Below, piece after piece: positions 24,227 through 54,628 of a stretch of 55,231 nucleotides of DNA (position 1 is the first letter of the stretch; each line of letters opens with the position of its first letter). A program made the position numbers and the translations under genes. The notes beneath the pieces were generated by a model. It did not search any database and was not told where the DNA came from. It worked only from the letters and a program-made list of their open reading frames with translations. The stretch is from positions 1-55,231 of the forward strand of contig SHXV01000004.1 in assembly GCA_009693105.1 (NCBI GenBank). Direction: 5' to 3'. The stretch comes from Dehalococcoidia bacterium (GTDB lineage Bacteria > Chloroflexota > Dehalococcoidia > SHXV01).

Positions 24227-24676
24227 ATGCGTATCGCGATTGGCGGCGACCACCACGGGCTGGCGTTCAAGCAGATGTTGGCGGAGTTGCTCCGGGATCG
24301 GGGGCACGAGGTCGCGGACCTCGGTTCTCACACGACGGACCCGGTGGATTACCCCGATTACGCGGCGGCGGTGGGGCGGGCCGTGAGCAAGGGGGAGGTC
24401 GACCGCGGCATCATCATTTGCGGCAGCGGGGTGGGGGCGAGCATCGCGGCGAACAAGCTGCGCGGTGTGCGGGCGGCGATCTGTCACGATACCTATTCCG
24501 CCGGCCAGGGGGTGGAGCACGACGATATGAACGTGCTCTGCCTGGGGTCCCGCGTGGTGGGGCCGGAGGTGGCGAAAGAGCTGGCGCTGGCGTTTGTGGG
24601 GGCGAGCTTCGATCCGACGGAGCGCTACGTGCGCCGACTGCGCAAGGTGGAGGCGCTGGAGGAATCCGGCGGTTAG
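24227..24676 (+). CDS. rpiB: ribose-5-phosphate isomerase B
   Basis: Interconverts ribose 5-phosphate and ribulose 5-phosphate, feeding transketolase upstream and supplying ribulose 5-phosphate for RibB. The 149-residue protein starts MRIAIGGDHHGLAFK and has the catalytic-site block GIIICGSGVGASIAANK. ARAAICHDTYSA-type (here VRAAICHDTYSA) and HDDMNVLCLGSRVVG follow. Same operon as tkt (14-base gap). Its stop overlaps the convergent VIT1-type gene by 4 bases. Confidence 0.95.
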   Translation: MRIAIGGDHHGLAFKQMLAELLRDRGHEVADLGSHTTDPVDYPDYAAAVGRAVSKGEVDRGIIICGSGVGASIAANKLRGVRAAICHDTYSAGQGVEHDDMNVLCLGSRVVGPEVAKELALAFVGASFDPTERYVRRLRKVEALEESGG

Positions 24677-25818
24677 GTCAGGCCGATTCCCGCCCCGACG
24701 ATGCTGCCGATCACGAACGTGACGGCGGCGGCCCCGAGCCCGATGATGGCCTGACGGCTTCCGGAGAAGAGGACGCCGCGCCCGGTAAACAGAGTGATGC
24801 CCGCCCCCAGCAGGAACAGGGCGATGGCACTTACGACGCCGCTGACGACGACAGCGGTAGTTCCCGCGCCGAAGATGAACGGAATAACCGGGATCAGGGC
24901 CGCTCCGGCGAAGACGGTAAACGAGGTGGAGGCGGCGGTCCAGGGGGAGCCGATCTCCCGCTCATCGATGCCGAGTTCTTCCCTGCCCAGTGTTTCCAGC
25001 GCGACGGAGCGATCTTCGATGATACGGGCGGCCATGGCGTGGGCGTGCTCGTGGTCGATCCCCTTGGATTCGTAGATGAGAGCGAGTTCCTCCCGTTCCT
25101 CGGCAGGGACGGTATCCAGCTCGTCCGCTTCGATCTGGAGCTGGCGCTCGTAGAGTTCGCGCGTGCTCTGGACGGAAACCCACTCGCCGAGGGCCATGGA
25201 GAAGGAGCCGGCGAGGACGCCGCTTATGCCAGCGAGGAGGACGACGTTGCGGCCGGGGTCGGCGCCGGACACGCCCATGATCAGGCTGAGGCTGGAGACG
25301 AGGCCATCGTTGGCGCCGAGGACGGCGGCGCGCAGCATGTTGCCGCTGGCGAAGCGGTGGCGGCCCTCGATGCGGGCGATGCGTTCGGAATCGGGCTGGG
25401 CGTTGATGGACATTTCGTTGAAGACGCGGGCGTGGGAGCGCTCATCGCTATCCAGCCCGGCGGCTTCGGCGTCGGTCTGGCCTTCGTAGACGTTGGCGGC
25501 GGTGAGCTCCATGGAGCGGACGGCAGGGAGGACCATGCGGGCACCGAAGCGGCGGGCCAGCCAGCTGAGCAGGCGGACGCGGGGGCCGGGGGCGAGGCTG
25601 GGTTCGGGGGCGCCGATCTCGCGGAGACGGCGGCGCCAGAAATCGACGTGGCGCGTTTCGACGCGGGCCATGCGGCGGTAGAGGGTCGCCAGGTTCTCGT
25701 TGCGTTCGGATTCGGCGAGGGCGCGGTAGAGCGCCGCTCCTTCCGCTTCCGCCTTCAGGTTGCGCCGGTAGCGTTTGATGTCGGTCTTACGCGGTGTCGG
25801 GTCGGTGCTCGTGGTCAA
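24673..25818 (-). CDS. ferritin-like domain fused to VIT1/CCC1 metal transporter
   Basis: A 381-residue two-part protein. Residues ~10-150 are a rubrerythrin/ferritin-like four-helix domain (EAEGAALYRALAESERNENLATLYRRMARVETRHVDFW, with E...ExxRH iron-binding pattern). Residues ~160-381 are a VIT1/CCC1 transporter: LRAAVLGANDGLVSSLSLIMGV, GEWVSVQSTRELYERQ, and three C-terminal membrane helices. Proteins of this build export or sequester Fe2+/Mn2+. I chose the TTG start at 25818 because GGAGG lies 6 bases upstream; the ATG-like frame up to 25986 runs through the promoter. Confidence 0.88.
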   Translation of the reverse strand: MTTSTDPTPRKTDIKRYRRNLKAEAEGAALYRALAESERNENLATLYRRMARVETRHVDFWRRRLREIGAPEPSLAPGPRVRLLSWLARRFGARMVLPAVRSMELTAANVYEGQTDAEAAGLDSDERSHARVFNEMSINAQPDSERIARIEGRHRFASGNMLRAAVLGANDGLVSSLSLIMGVSGADPGRNVVLLAGISGVLAGSFSMALGEWVSVQSTRELYERQLQIEADELDTVPAEEREELALIYESKGIDHEHAHAMAARIIEDRSVALETLGREELGIDEREIGSPWTAASTSFTVFAGAALIPVIPFIFGAGTTAVVVSGVVSAIALFLLGAGITLFTGRGVLFSGSRQAIIGLGAAAVTFVIGSIVGAGIGLT

Positions 25819-25839
25819 TGCTGTCCTCCGGCTAGAAAA

Positions 25840-25877: not shown

Positions 25878-25906
25878 TTGACACTAGCTGGACCGTCACG
25901 TAGCGT
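25878..25906 (+). promoter_or_regulatory. promoter of the riboswitch-glycosyltransferase transcript
   Basis: TTGACA (25878-25883) and TAGCGT (25901-25906) are 17 bases apart. The predicted start site near 25913 is just ahead of the riboswitch. Confidence 0.65.
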
Positions 25907-25922
25907 AGAGGCATCGGGAATT

Positions 25923-26045
25923 GAATAGTCGCCGAACTCCGCGACAGCGGGGACGGGGGAACCAGTTTTCTGGGGTTAATTCCCACTCGCGTGGGAAAGG
26001 GTCAGCCTTCGATCCTAACCCGTCAGCTAACCCCGTAGGCGTCGT
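25923..26045 (+). promoter_or_regulatory. cyclic di-AMP riboswitch (ydaO/yuaA class)
   Basis: The leader carries the conserved blocks of this aptamer in order. These are TCGCCGAACTCCGC near the 5' end, GGGGACGGGGGAACCA (25958-25973), a variable hairpin CCCACTCGCGTGGG followed by AAAGGGT, then GATCCTAACCCGTCAGCTAA and CCCCGTAGGCGTCG. The terminal GCC...GGC helix pairs the two ends. The terminator begins directly after it, which fits an OFF switch that ends transcription when c-di-AMP binds. Recognition is from memory of the consensus, not from a covariance search. Downstream gene: membrane glycosyltransferase. Confidence 0.88.
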
Positions 26046-26047
26046 GA

Positions 26048-26079
26048 GGGCTCATCAGGGTGTCCTGAGGGCCTTTTTT
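26048..26079 (+). terminator. riboswitch-controlled intrinsic terminator
   Basis: GGGCTC(A)TCAGG pairs with CCTGAGGGCC across a GTGT loop, with one bulged A, and is followed by six T. It lies immediately behind the c-di-AMP aptamer and 87 bases before the glycosyltransferase start, so it is the likely expression platform. Confidence 0.85.
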
Positions 26080-26165
26080 CTTGTCTGGCGGGGCCCTCCA
26101 GCACGCAACTCCTGAAGGAGGATGCCGGTCTGGATCCATTACCCGAAGCCCGCAGCGACCTGGCA

Positions 26166-27932
26166 ATGTACAATAAACTTACAGCACCCGTTGCGGACTA
26201 CCCTGCTGAGTCCGTGACGTGGGCCCCCGATTCCTACCTCGGCGCCCCCTACCCAATGTACCGTGACATGCCACTGCAACGCGCAGCGCAGGCCCGCTTC
26301 ACGGACGACGCGGTGGCGCTTGTGGGCGGCTGGGTGCGTCCGTCGCCGGCGGCTGAGGTGGCGGAGCCCGGGGCGATGGCCCGCGGCAAGACGGCGGCGC
26401 GGGAGTGGGTCGTCAGGCGGGGGTTCGACTTTGTGCCAGCGGGGCTGGCGCTGCTCCTGATCTCGTCCATGGTGTGGGGGCCATTCCTGATCCCGGTGCC
26501 GCTGGCGCTGGGGATGCTGGCGTTCCACGTGTACTGGCTGCACCGATCGCTCAAGGTGGGGATTTTCGCCATCGTGGGCTATTTCAAGATGCGGCGCGCC
26601 CTGGTGACGGACTGGCGGGTGGAGTACGACGCGTTCGTGGCGGCGGCTCCGGAAGGGGCGGATGTGCTGGCATGGGATGATGTGCGGCACGTGATCATCA
26701 TCCCGAGCTACCTGGAGACGGTGGAGAAGCTCCGCCCGACGATCCAGGGACTGGCGAACCAGCACGAGCCGAAGAAGCTGTACGTGGTACTGGCGATGGA
26801 GGAGAAGGACAAGGACGCGGCGAAGAAGGCGGCGATCCTGTGCGAGGAGTTTCGGGGGCGATTCGCCGATTTCTACGCGACGTTCCACCCGGCGGACATC
26901 GCCGGGGAGGTCCGGGGCAAGTCCTCCAACGAGGCGTGGGCGAGCGTGGTCTCCAAGCGGCTGCTGGTGGACGAGCGCGGGCTGAACATCGACCAGATGA
27001 CGGTGACGAGCTGCGATGCGGACTGCATTTTTCCTCAGGCATACTTCAACTGCCTCACCTACAAATTCGCCATCAACGGGCAGCGCTACCGGCGATTCTG
27101 GCAATCGCCGATCTTCCTCTACAACAACATCTGGGACGTGCCGGCGCCGCTGCGGGTGCCGACGGCGCTGGGTGGGCTGAACCACCTTTCCAAGCTCTGT
27201 CAACCGCTGGCCCCGGTGTTCCCCCAGTCCTGCTATAGCCTGAGCTTCCGGCTCGCTGACGATGTGGGGCACTGGGACGTGGATATCGTGCCGGAGGATT
27301 GGCACATGTTCCTCAAGTGCTTCTTCCTGACGGAGGGCGAGACGAAGGTGGAGCCGATGTTCCTGCCGGTGCGGAACGACGGCGTACGCTCCCGCAGTTA
27401 CTTCCGCACGTTCCCGAACCACTACGACCAGGCCCGCCGCCACGCCTGGGGCTGCTCCGATATCCCCTACGCGCTGCGGCAGGCGCTTGTGCACCGGGAG
27501 ATCCCACTGCACAAGCGGATCGTGCGGGTGGGGGTGCTGATGCAGAACCACATTTTGTGGTCGGCGCAGTGGTTCTTGGTGACGGTGCCGGGCATCCTCT
27601 TTGTGGGGGTGCTGCTGAAGGTGCCGGGGCTCGCTCCATCGCTCCGATTCGGTGGATGGATGGCCACATCGTTTCCGGACTGGTTCGCGCCGCTGTCTCG
27701 CGCAGCGCTGACGCCGTGCATCCTCTGCCTGGTGGTGCTGGTGACGCTGGACATGGTACTGCGGCCACGGCGGCCGGCCAGCTACCCCTGGTACTTGATG
27801 CCGGTCCAGTTCGTCCAGTGGTTCCTGATGGCGCCAATCACTCTGCTGTTCACGGCGCTGCCGGCGATGGAATCGCAGATCCGGCTGGCCCTGGGCAAGC
27901 GGCTGGAGTACCGGGTAACGGAGAAGGCCTGA
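26166..27932 (+). CDS. membrane glycosyltransferase, GT2 family (processive type)
   Basis: A 588-residue protein, probably polymerising or exporting a surface polysaccharide. An N-terminal pair of membrane segments (~97-130) precedes a cytosolic GT2 domain. VIIIPSYLETVEKL opens the fold, the DAD metal site lies near residue 284, VPEDWHMFLKC (~375) supplies the catalytic acidic pair, and QARRHAWG (~423) resembles QxxRW. Four or more C-terminal membrane helices follow. The ATG at 26166 lacks an SD. A CTG at 26130 has AAGGAGG 8 bases upstream and would add 12 residues. Preceded by a c-di-AMP riboswitch. Confidence 0.85.
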   Translation: MYNKLTAPVADYPAESVTWAPDSYLGAPYPMYRDMPLQRAAQARFTDDAVALVGGWVRPSPAAEVAEPGAMARGKTAAREWVVRRGFDFVPAGLALLLISSMVWGPFLIPVPLALGMLAFHVYWLHRSLKVGIFAIVGYFKMRRALVTDWRVEYDAFVAAAPEGADVLAWDDVRHVIIIPSYLETVEKLRPTIQGLANQHEPKKLYVVLAMEEKDKDAAKKAAILCEEFRGRFADFYATFHPADIAGEVRGKSSNEAWASVVSKRLLVDERGLNIDQMTVTSCDADCIFPQAYFNCLTYKFAINGQRYRRFWQSPIFLYNNIWDVPAPLRVPTALGGLNHLSKLCQPLAPVFPQSCYSLSFRLADDVGHWDVDIVPEDWHMFLKCFFLTEGETKVEPMFLPVRNDGVRSRSYFRTFPNHYDQARRHAWGCSDIPYALRQALVHREIPLHKRIVRVGVLMQNHILWSAQWFLVTVPGILFVGVLLKVPGLAPSLRFGGWMATSFPDWFAPLSRAALTPCILCLVVLVTLDMVLRPRRPASYPWYLMPVQFVQWFLMAPITLLFTALPAMESQIRLALGKRLEYRVTEKA

Positions 27933-50068: not shown

Positions 50069-53000
50069 ATGAGCGAGCAACCCGGTCCCTTTGGCCTTTA
50101 CAGCCCCCAGCACGAGCACGATAGCTGCGGTGTCGGCTTCATCGTGCAGCTCAAAGGCAAGAAGTCGCACCAGATCATCCAGGACGGGCTCCAGGCGCTG
50201 GAAAACCTGAACCATCGGGGCGCCTGCGGCTGCGAGGTGAACACGGGCGACGGGGCCGGGCTGCTGATCCAGATCCCGGACGACTTCTTCCGCTCTGAGT
50301 GCGCGCGCCTGGAGATCAATCTGCCGGAGGCGGGGCACTACGGGGTAGGGCTGCTGTTCGCATCCCCGGACGAGGAGTCGCGCCGGGAGGCGATGCAGCG
50401 GTTCGCTACGATCGTGGAGGAGGAGGGGCAGCACCTGCTGGGATGGCGGGACGTGCCGACGGACGGGGAGGGCGCGGACGTGGGGCCATCGGCGCGGGCG
50501 GTGGAGCCGCGGATGGCGCACGTGTTCATCGGCCAGGGCGCGGGCATTGCGGACGACGATGACTTCGAGCGGACGCTGTACGTTATTCGCAAGCGGTTCG
50601 AGAAGGCGATCGATCGCTCCCGGATGGCGGACGCGAGCTACTTCTACTTCCCCAGCCTGTCCTGCCGCACCCTGATCTACAAGGGGATGCTGACGGCGAC
50701 GCAGCTCCGGGCCTACTTTCCGGACCTGAGTGACCCGCGCATGGTAAGCGCGCTGGCGATGTTCCATTCCCGCTTTAGCACGAACACGTTCCCGAGCTGG
50801 AAGCTAGCGCACCCCTACCGGATGATTTCCCACAACGGGGAGATCAATACGCTGCGGGGCAACCTGAATTGGATGGCGGCGCGAGAGGCGCTGTTCGATT
50901 CGCCGCTGTTCGACGAAGTGAGCAAGATCACGCCGGTCATCGACGAGCGGGGCAGCGACACGGCCTGCCTGGACAACGCGCTGGAGCTGTTGGTGCGTTC
51001 CGGCCGTCCGATCGCCCACGCCATGATGATGCTGATCCCGGAGGCCTGGAGCGGACACGAATCGATGGCGGCGGAGAAGCAGGCGTTTTACGAGTACCAC
51101 AGCACGGTGGTGGAGCCGTGGGACGGCCCGGCATCGGTGGCGTTTACGGATGGCAAGACGATCGGCGCGGTCCTCGATCGCAACGGCCTGCGCCCGTCCC
51201 GTTTCTACGTGACGAAGGATGACCTGGTGATCATGGCCTCCGAAGTGGGGGTGCTGCCCATCGCGCCGGAGCGGGTGCTGATCAAGGGCCGCCTGCAGCC
51301 GGGCAAGATGTTCCTGGTGAACCTGGAAGAGGGCCGGATCATCGACGACACGGAGCTAAAGATGAGCCTGGCGGGGGAGCAGCCCTACGCGGAGTGGCTG
51401 AAGACGCACCTTCACCCGCTGACGGAGATGGCACCGGCGAAGGCGGAGCGTTCTCCCACGGGCGATGCGCTGCTGGCGCAGCAGATGGCGTTCGGGTACA
51501 CGATCGAGGACCTGAAGTACATCATCGGGCCGATGGTGAACAGCGGGGAAGAATCGGTCGGGTCGATGGGAACGGACACACCGGTGGCCGTGCTCTCTAA
51601 TCGGGCGCAGCCGCTGTACAACTACTTCCAACAGCTCTTCGCGCAGGTGACCAATCCCCCCCTGGACGCGATCCGGGAAGAGCTGGTGACCAGCGTGGCT
51701 ACGGTGATCGGCCCAGAGGGGAACCTGCTGGACCCGGCCCTCTCCGATATTCACCTGGTGAAGCTGGATTCGCCGGTGATCGATAACGAGCAGCTGGCGC
51801 AGATCAAGGCGCTGAAGGACGACCCCCATTTCCGCACGGCGGTGCTGCCGATCCTGTTCCCCGCGGAGGAGGGTACCGGCGGGCTGGAACGGGCGATGGA
51901 TGCGCTCTTCCAGGCGGCGGACGACGCCATCGACGCGGGGACGAAGGTGCTGGTCCTGTCCGACCGGGGCGTGGACGGAAAGCGAGCGCCCATCCCGGCC
52001 CTGCTGGCGGTGGCGGGGCTGCACAATCACCTGCTCCGAGAGAAGAAGCGGACGCAGGTGGGGCTGGTGCTGGAGACGGGCGAGCCGCGAGAGGTGCACC
52101 ACGTCGCCCTGCTCATCGGCTATGGGGCGGGTGCAGTCAACCCGTACCTGGCGCTCGACACGCTGCCTCGCTTGAAGGAAGAAGGCTTCGTCGATGCCGA
52201 GATGGACGAGCACACCGCGCACAAGAACTACCTGAAGGCGATCAAGAAGGGCGTGGTGAAGGTGATGTCCAAGATGGGCATCTCCACCGTGCAGTCCTAC
52301 CGCGGGGCCCAGATCTTCGAGGCGATCGGGCTGGGGCAGGAGTTCGTGGACCGCTACTTCACGAGGACGGTGTCGCGCATCGGCGGGGTGGGGCTGAACG
52401 AGATCGCGATCGAATCGCTGACCAACCACCGACGGGCGTATCCGGATCGGACGGGCGGAGCGCACGAGCTGGAGTGGGGCGGCCAGTATCAGTGGCGGCG
52501 CGATGGGGAATATCACCTGTTCAACCCGGAGACGGTGTTCCGCCTCCAGCACGCGACGCGCACGGGCAGGTTCGACATATTCCGCGAGTACACGGGAATG
52601 GTGAACGAGCAGAGCAAGAACCTGGCGACGCTGCGGGGGCTGTTTACGCTGAAGCCGGCGGGCCCGCCCGTCCCGATCGAAGAGGTGGAGTCGGCGGAGA
52701 GCCTGTTCAGGCGGTTCAAGACGGGCGCCATGTCCTACGGTTCGATCAGCGCGGAGGCACATGAGACGCTGGCGATCGCGATGAACCGGATCGGCGGGCG
52801 GAGCAACACGGGCGAGGGGGGCGAGGACCGCCGCCGCTACACGCCGGACGCCAACGGCGATTCGCGGCGGAGCGCGATCAAGCAGGTGGCGTCCGGACGC
52901 TTCGGCGTAACGAGCGAGTACCTGGTGAACGCGGATGAGCTGCAGATCAAGATGGCGCAGGGCGCGAAACCGGGCGAGGGCGGCCAGCTTCCCGGCACCA

Positions 53001-54628
53001 AGGTGTGGCCGTGGATCGCCGAGGTGCGCAACGCCATACCGGGGGTCGGGCTGATCAGCCCGCCGCCGCATCACGACATCTATTCGATCGAGGACCTGGC
53101 GCAGCTGATCCACGACCTGAAGAACGCGAATTCGCGGGCTCGCATCAGCGTGAAGCTCGTGGCGGAGGTGGGCGTGGGCACGGTGGCGGCAGGTGTGGCC
53201 AAGGCGAAGTCCGATGTGGTGCTGATCAGCGGGCACGATGGCGGCACGGGCGCGAGCCCGCTGACATCGCTCAAACACGCGGGCATCCCCTGGGAGCTGG
53301 GGCTGGCGGAAACGCAGCAGACTCTGGTGATGAACAAGCTGCGCGACCGGATCACGGTGGAGGTGGACGGCCAGCTCAAGACGGGGCGGGACGTGATCAT
53401 CGGCGCGCTGCTGGGGGCGGAGGAGTTCGGCTTCGCCACGGCGCCGCTGGTCGTAATGGGCTGCGTCATGATGCGGGTCTGCCACCTGGATACCTGCCCG
53501 GTGGGCATCGCCACACAGAACCCGAAGCTGCGGGAGCAGTTCAGCGGGCAGGCGGAGCACGTGGTCAACTTCTTCCGCTTCATCGCGGAGGAGGTGCGTG
53601 AGCAGATGGCCCAGATGGGCTTCCGCACCTTCGAGGAGATGGTGGGCCGGGTCGACTGCCTGGATACGCGGGAAGCGGTAAACCACTGGAAGGCGCAGGG
53701 GCTGGACCTTGCCCCCATCCTGGCGCGGCCGGAGGCGGGGCCCGGCGTGGCGACGCATTGCGTCACGACGCAGGACCACGGGCTGGAGGGCGCGCTGGAC
53801 CAGCGGTTGATTCCGCTGGCGGCGGCGGCGCTGGAGCGCGGCGAGCGCGTACGCATCGATATGGCGATCCGGAACGTGAACCGGACGGTGGGGACGATGC
53901 TGGGCAGCGAGGTAACGAGACGCTATGCGCAGAACGGGCTGCCGGAGGACACGATCGACATCCGGTTCCACGGATCGGCGGGGCTGAGCTTTGGCGCCTT
54001 CATTCCGTCCGGCATCACGCTACGCCTTGAGGGCGACACGAACGATTACGTGGGCAAGGGGTTGTCCGGGGGCAAGATCATCGTCTATCCGCCGAAGGCG
54101 GCGACGTTCGTCCCGGAGGAGAACATCGTCATCGGCAACGTGGCGCTGTATGGGGCGACGAGCGGATCGGCGTTCTTCCGTGGGCTGGGCGGGGAGCGGT
54201 TCGCCGTGCGCAACAGCGGCGCTTTAGCCGTTGTGGAGGGCACAGGGGACCACGGCTGTGAGTACATGACGGGGGGGCGCATCGTTATCATCGGCCCGAC
54301 GGGGCGCAACTTCGGCGCCGGCATGAGCGGCGGCATGGCCTACGTGTGGGACGTGGACGGGCAGTTCAAGAGCCGCTGTAACTTGGAGATGATCGATCTG
54401 GAGGCGCTGGACGAGCCGGAGGACCTGGACCTGGTCAAGGGGCTGCTGGGCCGCCACCTGGAATACACGGAGAGCACGGTGGCGCGGGAGCTGCTGAAGG
54501 ACTGGCCGGCGGCGGCGAAGCGGTTTCTCAAGGTGATGCCGAGGGAATACCGGCGGGTGCTGCGGGAGCGCGCGCGCGAGGGCGGGCAGGACGAGCGGCA
54601 GCCGCTGGTGGCGGCGGGCAATGGCTAA
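50069..54628 (+). CDS. gltB: glutamate synthase, large subunit
   Basis: Transfers the amide of glutamine to 2-oxoglutarate. The 1519-residue chain has all four regions. The class II glutaminase has nucleophile C20 ([11 protein letters not shown]), so residues 1-19 are a propeptide to be cleaved. A central domain follows, then the FMN barrel ([51 protein letters not shown]) with 3Fe-4S cysteines in [18 protein letters not shown] near residues 1132-1142. The C-terminal GXGXG helix domain ([17 protein letters not shown]) closes it. Overlaps gltD by 8 bases. Confidence 0.97.

Follow-up and report, generated by a model that had tools for sequence, protein, structure and literature searches.

A class-wide c-di-AMP riboswitch predicted to activate a membrane glycosyltransferase gene in Dehalococcoidia-type Chloroflexota

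A riboswitch, a terminator and a membrane glycosyltransferase

Dehalococcoidia-type Chloroflexota are soil and sediment bacteria. The stretch of DNA analysed here as a whole, called the window, covers 55,231 nucleotides of contig SHXV01000004.1, from a genome of 1.23 Mb in 55 contigs that is 84% complete. On its forward strand, a putative promoter (25878-25906) precedes an aptamer of the c-di-AMP (ydaO/yuaA) class (25920-26055), an intrinsic terminator (26046-26079) and the gene of a 588-aa membrane GT2 glycosyltransferase (26166-27932, PF13632). The aptamer aligns to the full RF00379 model (positions 1-134 of 134) at 93.8 bits (E 7e-21), against a gathering cut-off of 38 bits, and is the sole such match in the genome. 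Together with the terminator region, it folds 2.9 standard deviations better than shuffled sequences, none of which (0/200) equalled it. The terminator consists of a hairpin (26046-26076) and a run of six T (26074-26079), it begins 4 nt past the P1 helix (3' strand at 26038-26041), and its position is kept in relatives. Thus, a sequence-only reading that had proposed a ydaO/yuaA-class leader, a six-T terminator directly behind it and a 588-residue membrane glycosyltransferase downstream was right on each count, and the Rfam search that it had suggested leaves a wide distance to the cut-off.

The promoter named by the same reading fared less evenly. Its -35 element (TTGACA, 25878-25883) is perfect and is followed by a 17-nt spacer, but the -10 element (TAGCGT, 25901-25906) is weak; the assignment comes from direct reading, and a generic promoter scan listed no promoter at this position. 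However, most glycosyltransferase-linked aptamers are preceded, at a similar distance, by TTGACA-N16-18 and a -10-like hexamer (mean 8.9 of 12 matches, versus 6.8 in shuffles), which supports the promoter in the window.

Elsewhere in the window, the divergent neighbour (24673-25821, minus strand) encodes a fusion of a rubrerythrin-like and a VIT1 domain; the protein resembles MbfA-type iron exporters, at a score far below that model's cut-off. At the contig start (1-731), a tRNA (490-561) lies between the end of a 23S rRNA (1-417) and a 5S rRNA (615-731). Spacer tRNAs more commonly separate the 16S from the 23S gene. An open reading frame of 1519 aa occupies 50069-54628 on the plus strand.

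A source of the ligand is also present. The genome encodes one diadenylate cyclase domain (PF02457), in a CdaA-like membrane protein, which answers the search for disA or cdaA that had been proposed for this genome. The open reading frame that follows it in L002 is presumably YbbR/CdaR-like, given its own sequence and position. In fact, diadenylate cyclase and penicillin-binding transpeptidases occur together in all 13 of the glycosyltransferase-bearing class genomes that were tested, and two class members devoid of both glycosyltransferase and riboswitch are also devoid of diadenylate cyclase and of penicillin-binding transpeptidases. The aptamer is predicted to bind c-di-AMP. That it has drifted to another ligand is most improbable: both the full-length match and the presence of the cyclase in every glycosyltransferase-bearing genome tested speak against it.

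Linkage and fold of the glycosyltransferase

To follow this pairing in relatives, a survey already suggested by the sequence-only reading, we searched 393 genomes of the class with a profile of 23 glycosyltransferases and scanned the DNA upstream of each match with RF00379. This gave 66 strong homologues, six of which were left out because of a contig edge, a fragment or a missing sequence. Among the 60 evaluable homologues the aptamer lies directly upstream in 56 and, in three more (G054, G073, G088:C72), 2-4 kb upstream at the head of the operon; the single exception is a paralogue (G088:C259, the same as L170). Named contigs carrying close homologues tell the same story (of 17 evaluable, 12 have the aptamer directly upstream, three at the operon head and two not at all), although several of them come from the same genomes and the two counts are not independent. 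These named relatives are metagenome bins labelled Chloroflexi or Dehalococcoidia, labels that make a Dehalococcoidia-like class almost certain. Outside the class, 20 homologues from further Chloroflexota classes all lacked an aptamer within about 1.4 kb, and RF00379 had no match anywhere in 14 of the 20 genomes. In the genomes surveyed, therefore, the link is specific to the Dehalococcoidia-type class and nearly fixed in it. In three contigs (L011, L017, L018) a PMT_2-like (GT-C) membrane gene stands between riboswitch and GT2 gene in one operon. The neighbours of the glycosyltransferase are otherwise not conserved; only the riboswitch is. We dropped the idea that a nearby thiamine pyrophosphokinase gene might be the true target, as these neighbours vary while the riboswitch stays. 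One homologue without riboswitch (L015:2819-4630) sits on a contig binned as Spirochaetia, by transfer or misbinning.

Searching the PDB with the single glycosyltransferase sequence returned only spurious ion-channel matches, and a profile search of the PDB returned none, so we turned to fold comparison. The AlphaFold model (23 sequences, pLDDT 82.6, pTM 0.82) shows a GT-A domain flanked by N- and C-terminal membrane helices. Model confidence is low over residues 1-74, which also lack conservation, and the exact start codon is therefore uncertain. The best PDB matches found by Foldseek are the bacterial cellulose synthase BcsA (E 2e-11) and hyaluronan synthases (HAS, E 2e-10), followed more weakly by chitin synthases and PcManGT, with TarP also among the structural matches; the glycosyltransferase is 10-15% identical to these enzymes of solved structure, with TM-scores of 0.3-0.5. 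Invariant in the family are DAD (284-286), ED (377-378), Q422, R425 and W428. The QxxRW motif is thus altered: Q422-x-x-R425 is kept, with the tryptophan at 428 rather than 426 (QARRHAW).

In its modelled fold, then, the enzyme resembles processive polysaccharide synthases, and this fold makes a surface polysaccharide the likely product. It might instead transfer single sugars to a lipid carrier or protein under riboswitch control, perhaps with the PMT_2-like protein of the three contigs, where both genes share the riboswitch. In favour of this, no export or polymerase partners accompany the gene, the matches include the single-transfer enzymes PcManGT and TarP, and the tryptophan of Q(Q/R)xRW is displaced. 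We nevertheless hold single transfer to be rather unlikely, because BcsA, HAS and chitin synthase head the structural matches and membrane helices lie on both sides of the catalytic domain. Thus, of the proposal that c-di-AMP controls an envelope polymer, the predicted control of a membrane GT2 enzyme is now strongly supported by class-wide linkage and by modelled resemblance to processive synthases; the polysaccharide itself is read from the fold.

Pseudoknot, terminator and the sign of the switch

Does c-di-AMP turn this gene on or off? On this point the sequence-only reading had cited the usual turn-off role of the class and said nothing firm. The layout of the leader itself argues for ON. 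In the window, the hairpin loop (AGCCUUC, 26004-26010) pairs over 7 bp with the tail GAGGGCU (26046-26052), and all 7 nt of this pseudoknot 3' strand double as the left arm of the terminator hairpin. A U-tract terminator was detectable in 17 glycosyltransferase-linked leaders, and in 16 of them the pseudoknot strand lies within the terminator left arm, with an overlap of at least 4 nt; the overlap is only marginal in L010, and the U-tract of L004 is poor. Since one strand serves both structures, pseudoknot and terminator should be mutually exclusive.

The two strands change together. L003 pairs loop ACCUUC with tail GAAGGU (hairpin GAAGGUCG...CGACCUUUUUU), and L005 pairs ACUUUCC with GGAAAGU. 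Loop and tail pair over at least 6 bp in 60 of 65 distinct class leaders, and swapping tails between leaders lowers the pairing: none of 5000 permutations reached the observed mean. For the glycosyltransferase-linked leaders alone, the same test gave 0/5000 with Watson-Crick pairs and 9/5000 when G-U pairs were allowed. This swap test replaced a pair count based on a MAFFT alignment, in which loop registers shift by one column. Judged from the sequences, the complementarity follows each individual leader across the glycosyltransferase-linked set, which is a covarying set. The crystallised T. tengcongensis aptamer shows the same complementarity (loop CUCCUUCG, tail CGAAGGAG; sequence from PMC5393176), and its pseudoknot has been called stable (PMC5393176).

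To explain this arrangement, we propose that the leader RNA transcribed from the promoter at 25878-25906 would fold the aptamer and that, with c-di-AMP bound, the organised aptamer would capture the tail through its loop. The terminator would then be blocked, and RNA polymerase would continue into the GT2 gene; with no c-di-AMP, the terminator would form and transcription would stop. More c-di-AMP, a signal of high K+ or turgor, would then mean more envelope glycan synthesis. If the ligand made no difference to pseudoknot formation, the switch would be unresponsive. Ligand-promoted docking of the expression platform has been described for this aptamer class in a review (PMC10907184). In the fluoride riboswitch, where a pseudoknot strand is also a terminator arm, ligand binding prevents termination and the switch is ON (PMC11077080); by the same reasoning the glycosyltransferase leaders should be ON, as the overlap suggests. 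Two leader families, f2 and f34, carry a start-codon hairpin in place of the terminator, its left arm overlapping the pseudoknot region; they would be translational ON switches, a less confident reading given the short, weak pseudoknot of f34. We put the joint reading, a c-di-AMP aptamer acting as an ON switch ahead of a GT2 enzyme that likely makes or extends a cell-surface glycan, at a little under 60%.

A conventional OFF switch, in which c-di-AMP would promote the terminator and repress the GT2 gene as it does at kimA, kdp and ablA, has precedent on its side: among the c-di-AMP riboswitches of tested sign that we found, all are OFF (PMC6488665, PMC9960051, PMC9337991). In the window, moreover, P1 ends 4 nt before the terminator, and the two could coexist. 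In known OFF leaders, however, the terminator is separate, about 20-35 nt past P1, and pseudoknot/P1 nucleotides form the antiterminator, as in the Dehalobacter switch (PMC9337991). In the glycosyltransferase leader the terminator takes its left arm from the pseudoknot strand itself, and folds of this leader offered no alternative antiterminator partner, which makes the OFF reading improbable.

It is less credible still that the terminator is a ligand-independent attenuator or insulator, with the aptamer translational or vestigial. A translational c-di-AMP switch without terminator exists at C. glutamicum nlpC (PMC9960051), and the leader hairpin of f2 and f34 is adjacent to the start codon. 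Yet the homologues examined retain the aptamer along with the overlapping hairpin, and loop/tail complementarity tracks individual sequences.

The ON reading of the glycosyltransferase leaders gains from comparison with leaders at other targets. None of eight Bacillota leaders of kimA/ablA type (kimA-like APC permeases of Priestia and Anoxybacillus plasmids, Peptoclostridium ablA and two unannotated) shows the overlap; their compact terminator starts about 20-35 nt past P1. The kimA-like comparators were found with the published T. tengcongensis sequence, a plasmid search with the window aptamer having returned only fragments. When viral contigs were scanned with patterns of the aptamer core, one scan found no match and another found four contigs. 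A Niallia taxi megaplasmid leader (L129) carries two tandem c-di-AMP aptamers with a terminator between them.

Within the class itself, both layouts occur. Leaders of the trehalose-6-phosphate synthase gene otsA (G007, G040), of MscS and of BrkB have a separate terminator, those of LuxR-type response regulators and of an Mrp-like antiporter overlap like the glycosyltransferase leaders, and two otsAB leaders (G016, G042) fit neither layout cleanly. The further targets in relatives, which comprise trehalose synthesis, mechanosensitive and antiporter genes, amount on the evidence of these gene assignments to an osmotic regulon. Trehalose-6-phosphate synthase genes lie behind RF00379 in several class members (L068, L069, L072, L076, L080, L105), and we found no link of trehalose to a c-di-AMP riboswitch in the open-access literature. 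LuxR-type response regulators behind RF00379 and a pseudoknot-overlapping terminator (L102, L087, L112) are possible further c-di-AMP-activated genes.

One class may thus have wired the same aptamer in opposite ways, OFF at trehalose and MscS genes with separate terminators and ON at a conserved envelope glycan synthase with overlapping ones, a proposal to which we give even odds. If the glycosyltransferase leaders are ON, a terminator shift of a few nucleotides would be enough to wire one aptamer to either output. Plausibly, high c-di-AMP in K+-replete cells at high turgor would turn osmolyte synthesis off and envelope glycan synthesis on. The known roles of c-di-AMP concern K+, osmolytes and wall hydrolases. 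In the open-access literature, which omits the key original papers of this class, we found neither a report of a c-di-AMP ON switch nor a paper pairing an RF00379 riboswitch with a GT2 enzyme or with Chloroflexota. If true, this would be the first c-di-AMP riboswitch to activate its own gene and the first dedicated to glycan synthesis, and its near-obligatory, class-wide link to one glycan synthase would mean that a large group, most of it uncultured, adjusts envelope polymer synthesis to a turgor signal.

Comparison with known systems

The leader shares its core, its loop/tail pseudoknot and its leader terminator with known ydaO/yuaA switches (B. subtilis kimA, B. thuringiensis kdp, Dehalobacter ablA). 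In those, the terminator is separate and downstream, and binding terminates transcription; here, the pseudoknot 3' strand is the terminator left arm. The window leader, with its 7-nt overlap, therefore departs from the classical OFF-type layout, in which the terminator stands clear of the pseudoknot strand. The targets also differ: a transporter, an osmolyte enzyme or a wall hydrolase in known systems, a GT2 synthase here. The C. glutamicum nlpC switch belongs to the same aptamer class and heads a seven-gene operon that includes a glycosyltransferase, with the riboswitch ahead of nlpC. Unlike the glycosyltransferase leader, it is translational, OFF and without terminator; a segment of its aptamer has been suggested to pair with the GGAG of the ribosome-binding site, thereby blocking translation (PMC9960051). 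The fluoride riboswitch (crcB, RF01734) has the same pseudoknot/terminator overlap, but its aptamer and ligand are unrelated; the two operate in a similar way without being relatives.

As for the enzyme, BcsA, hyaluronan synthase and chitin synthase, its best Foldseek matches, share with it the GT-A domain between membrane helices and the DxD and ED motifs, whereas low identity, modest TM-scores and the displaced tryptophan set it apart. No PilZ domain or Bcs partners were seen, and the enzyme forms a separate Chloroflexota family.
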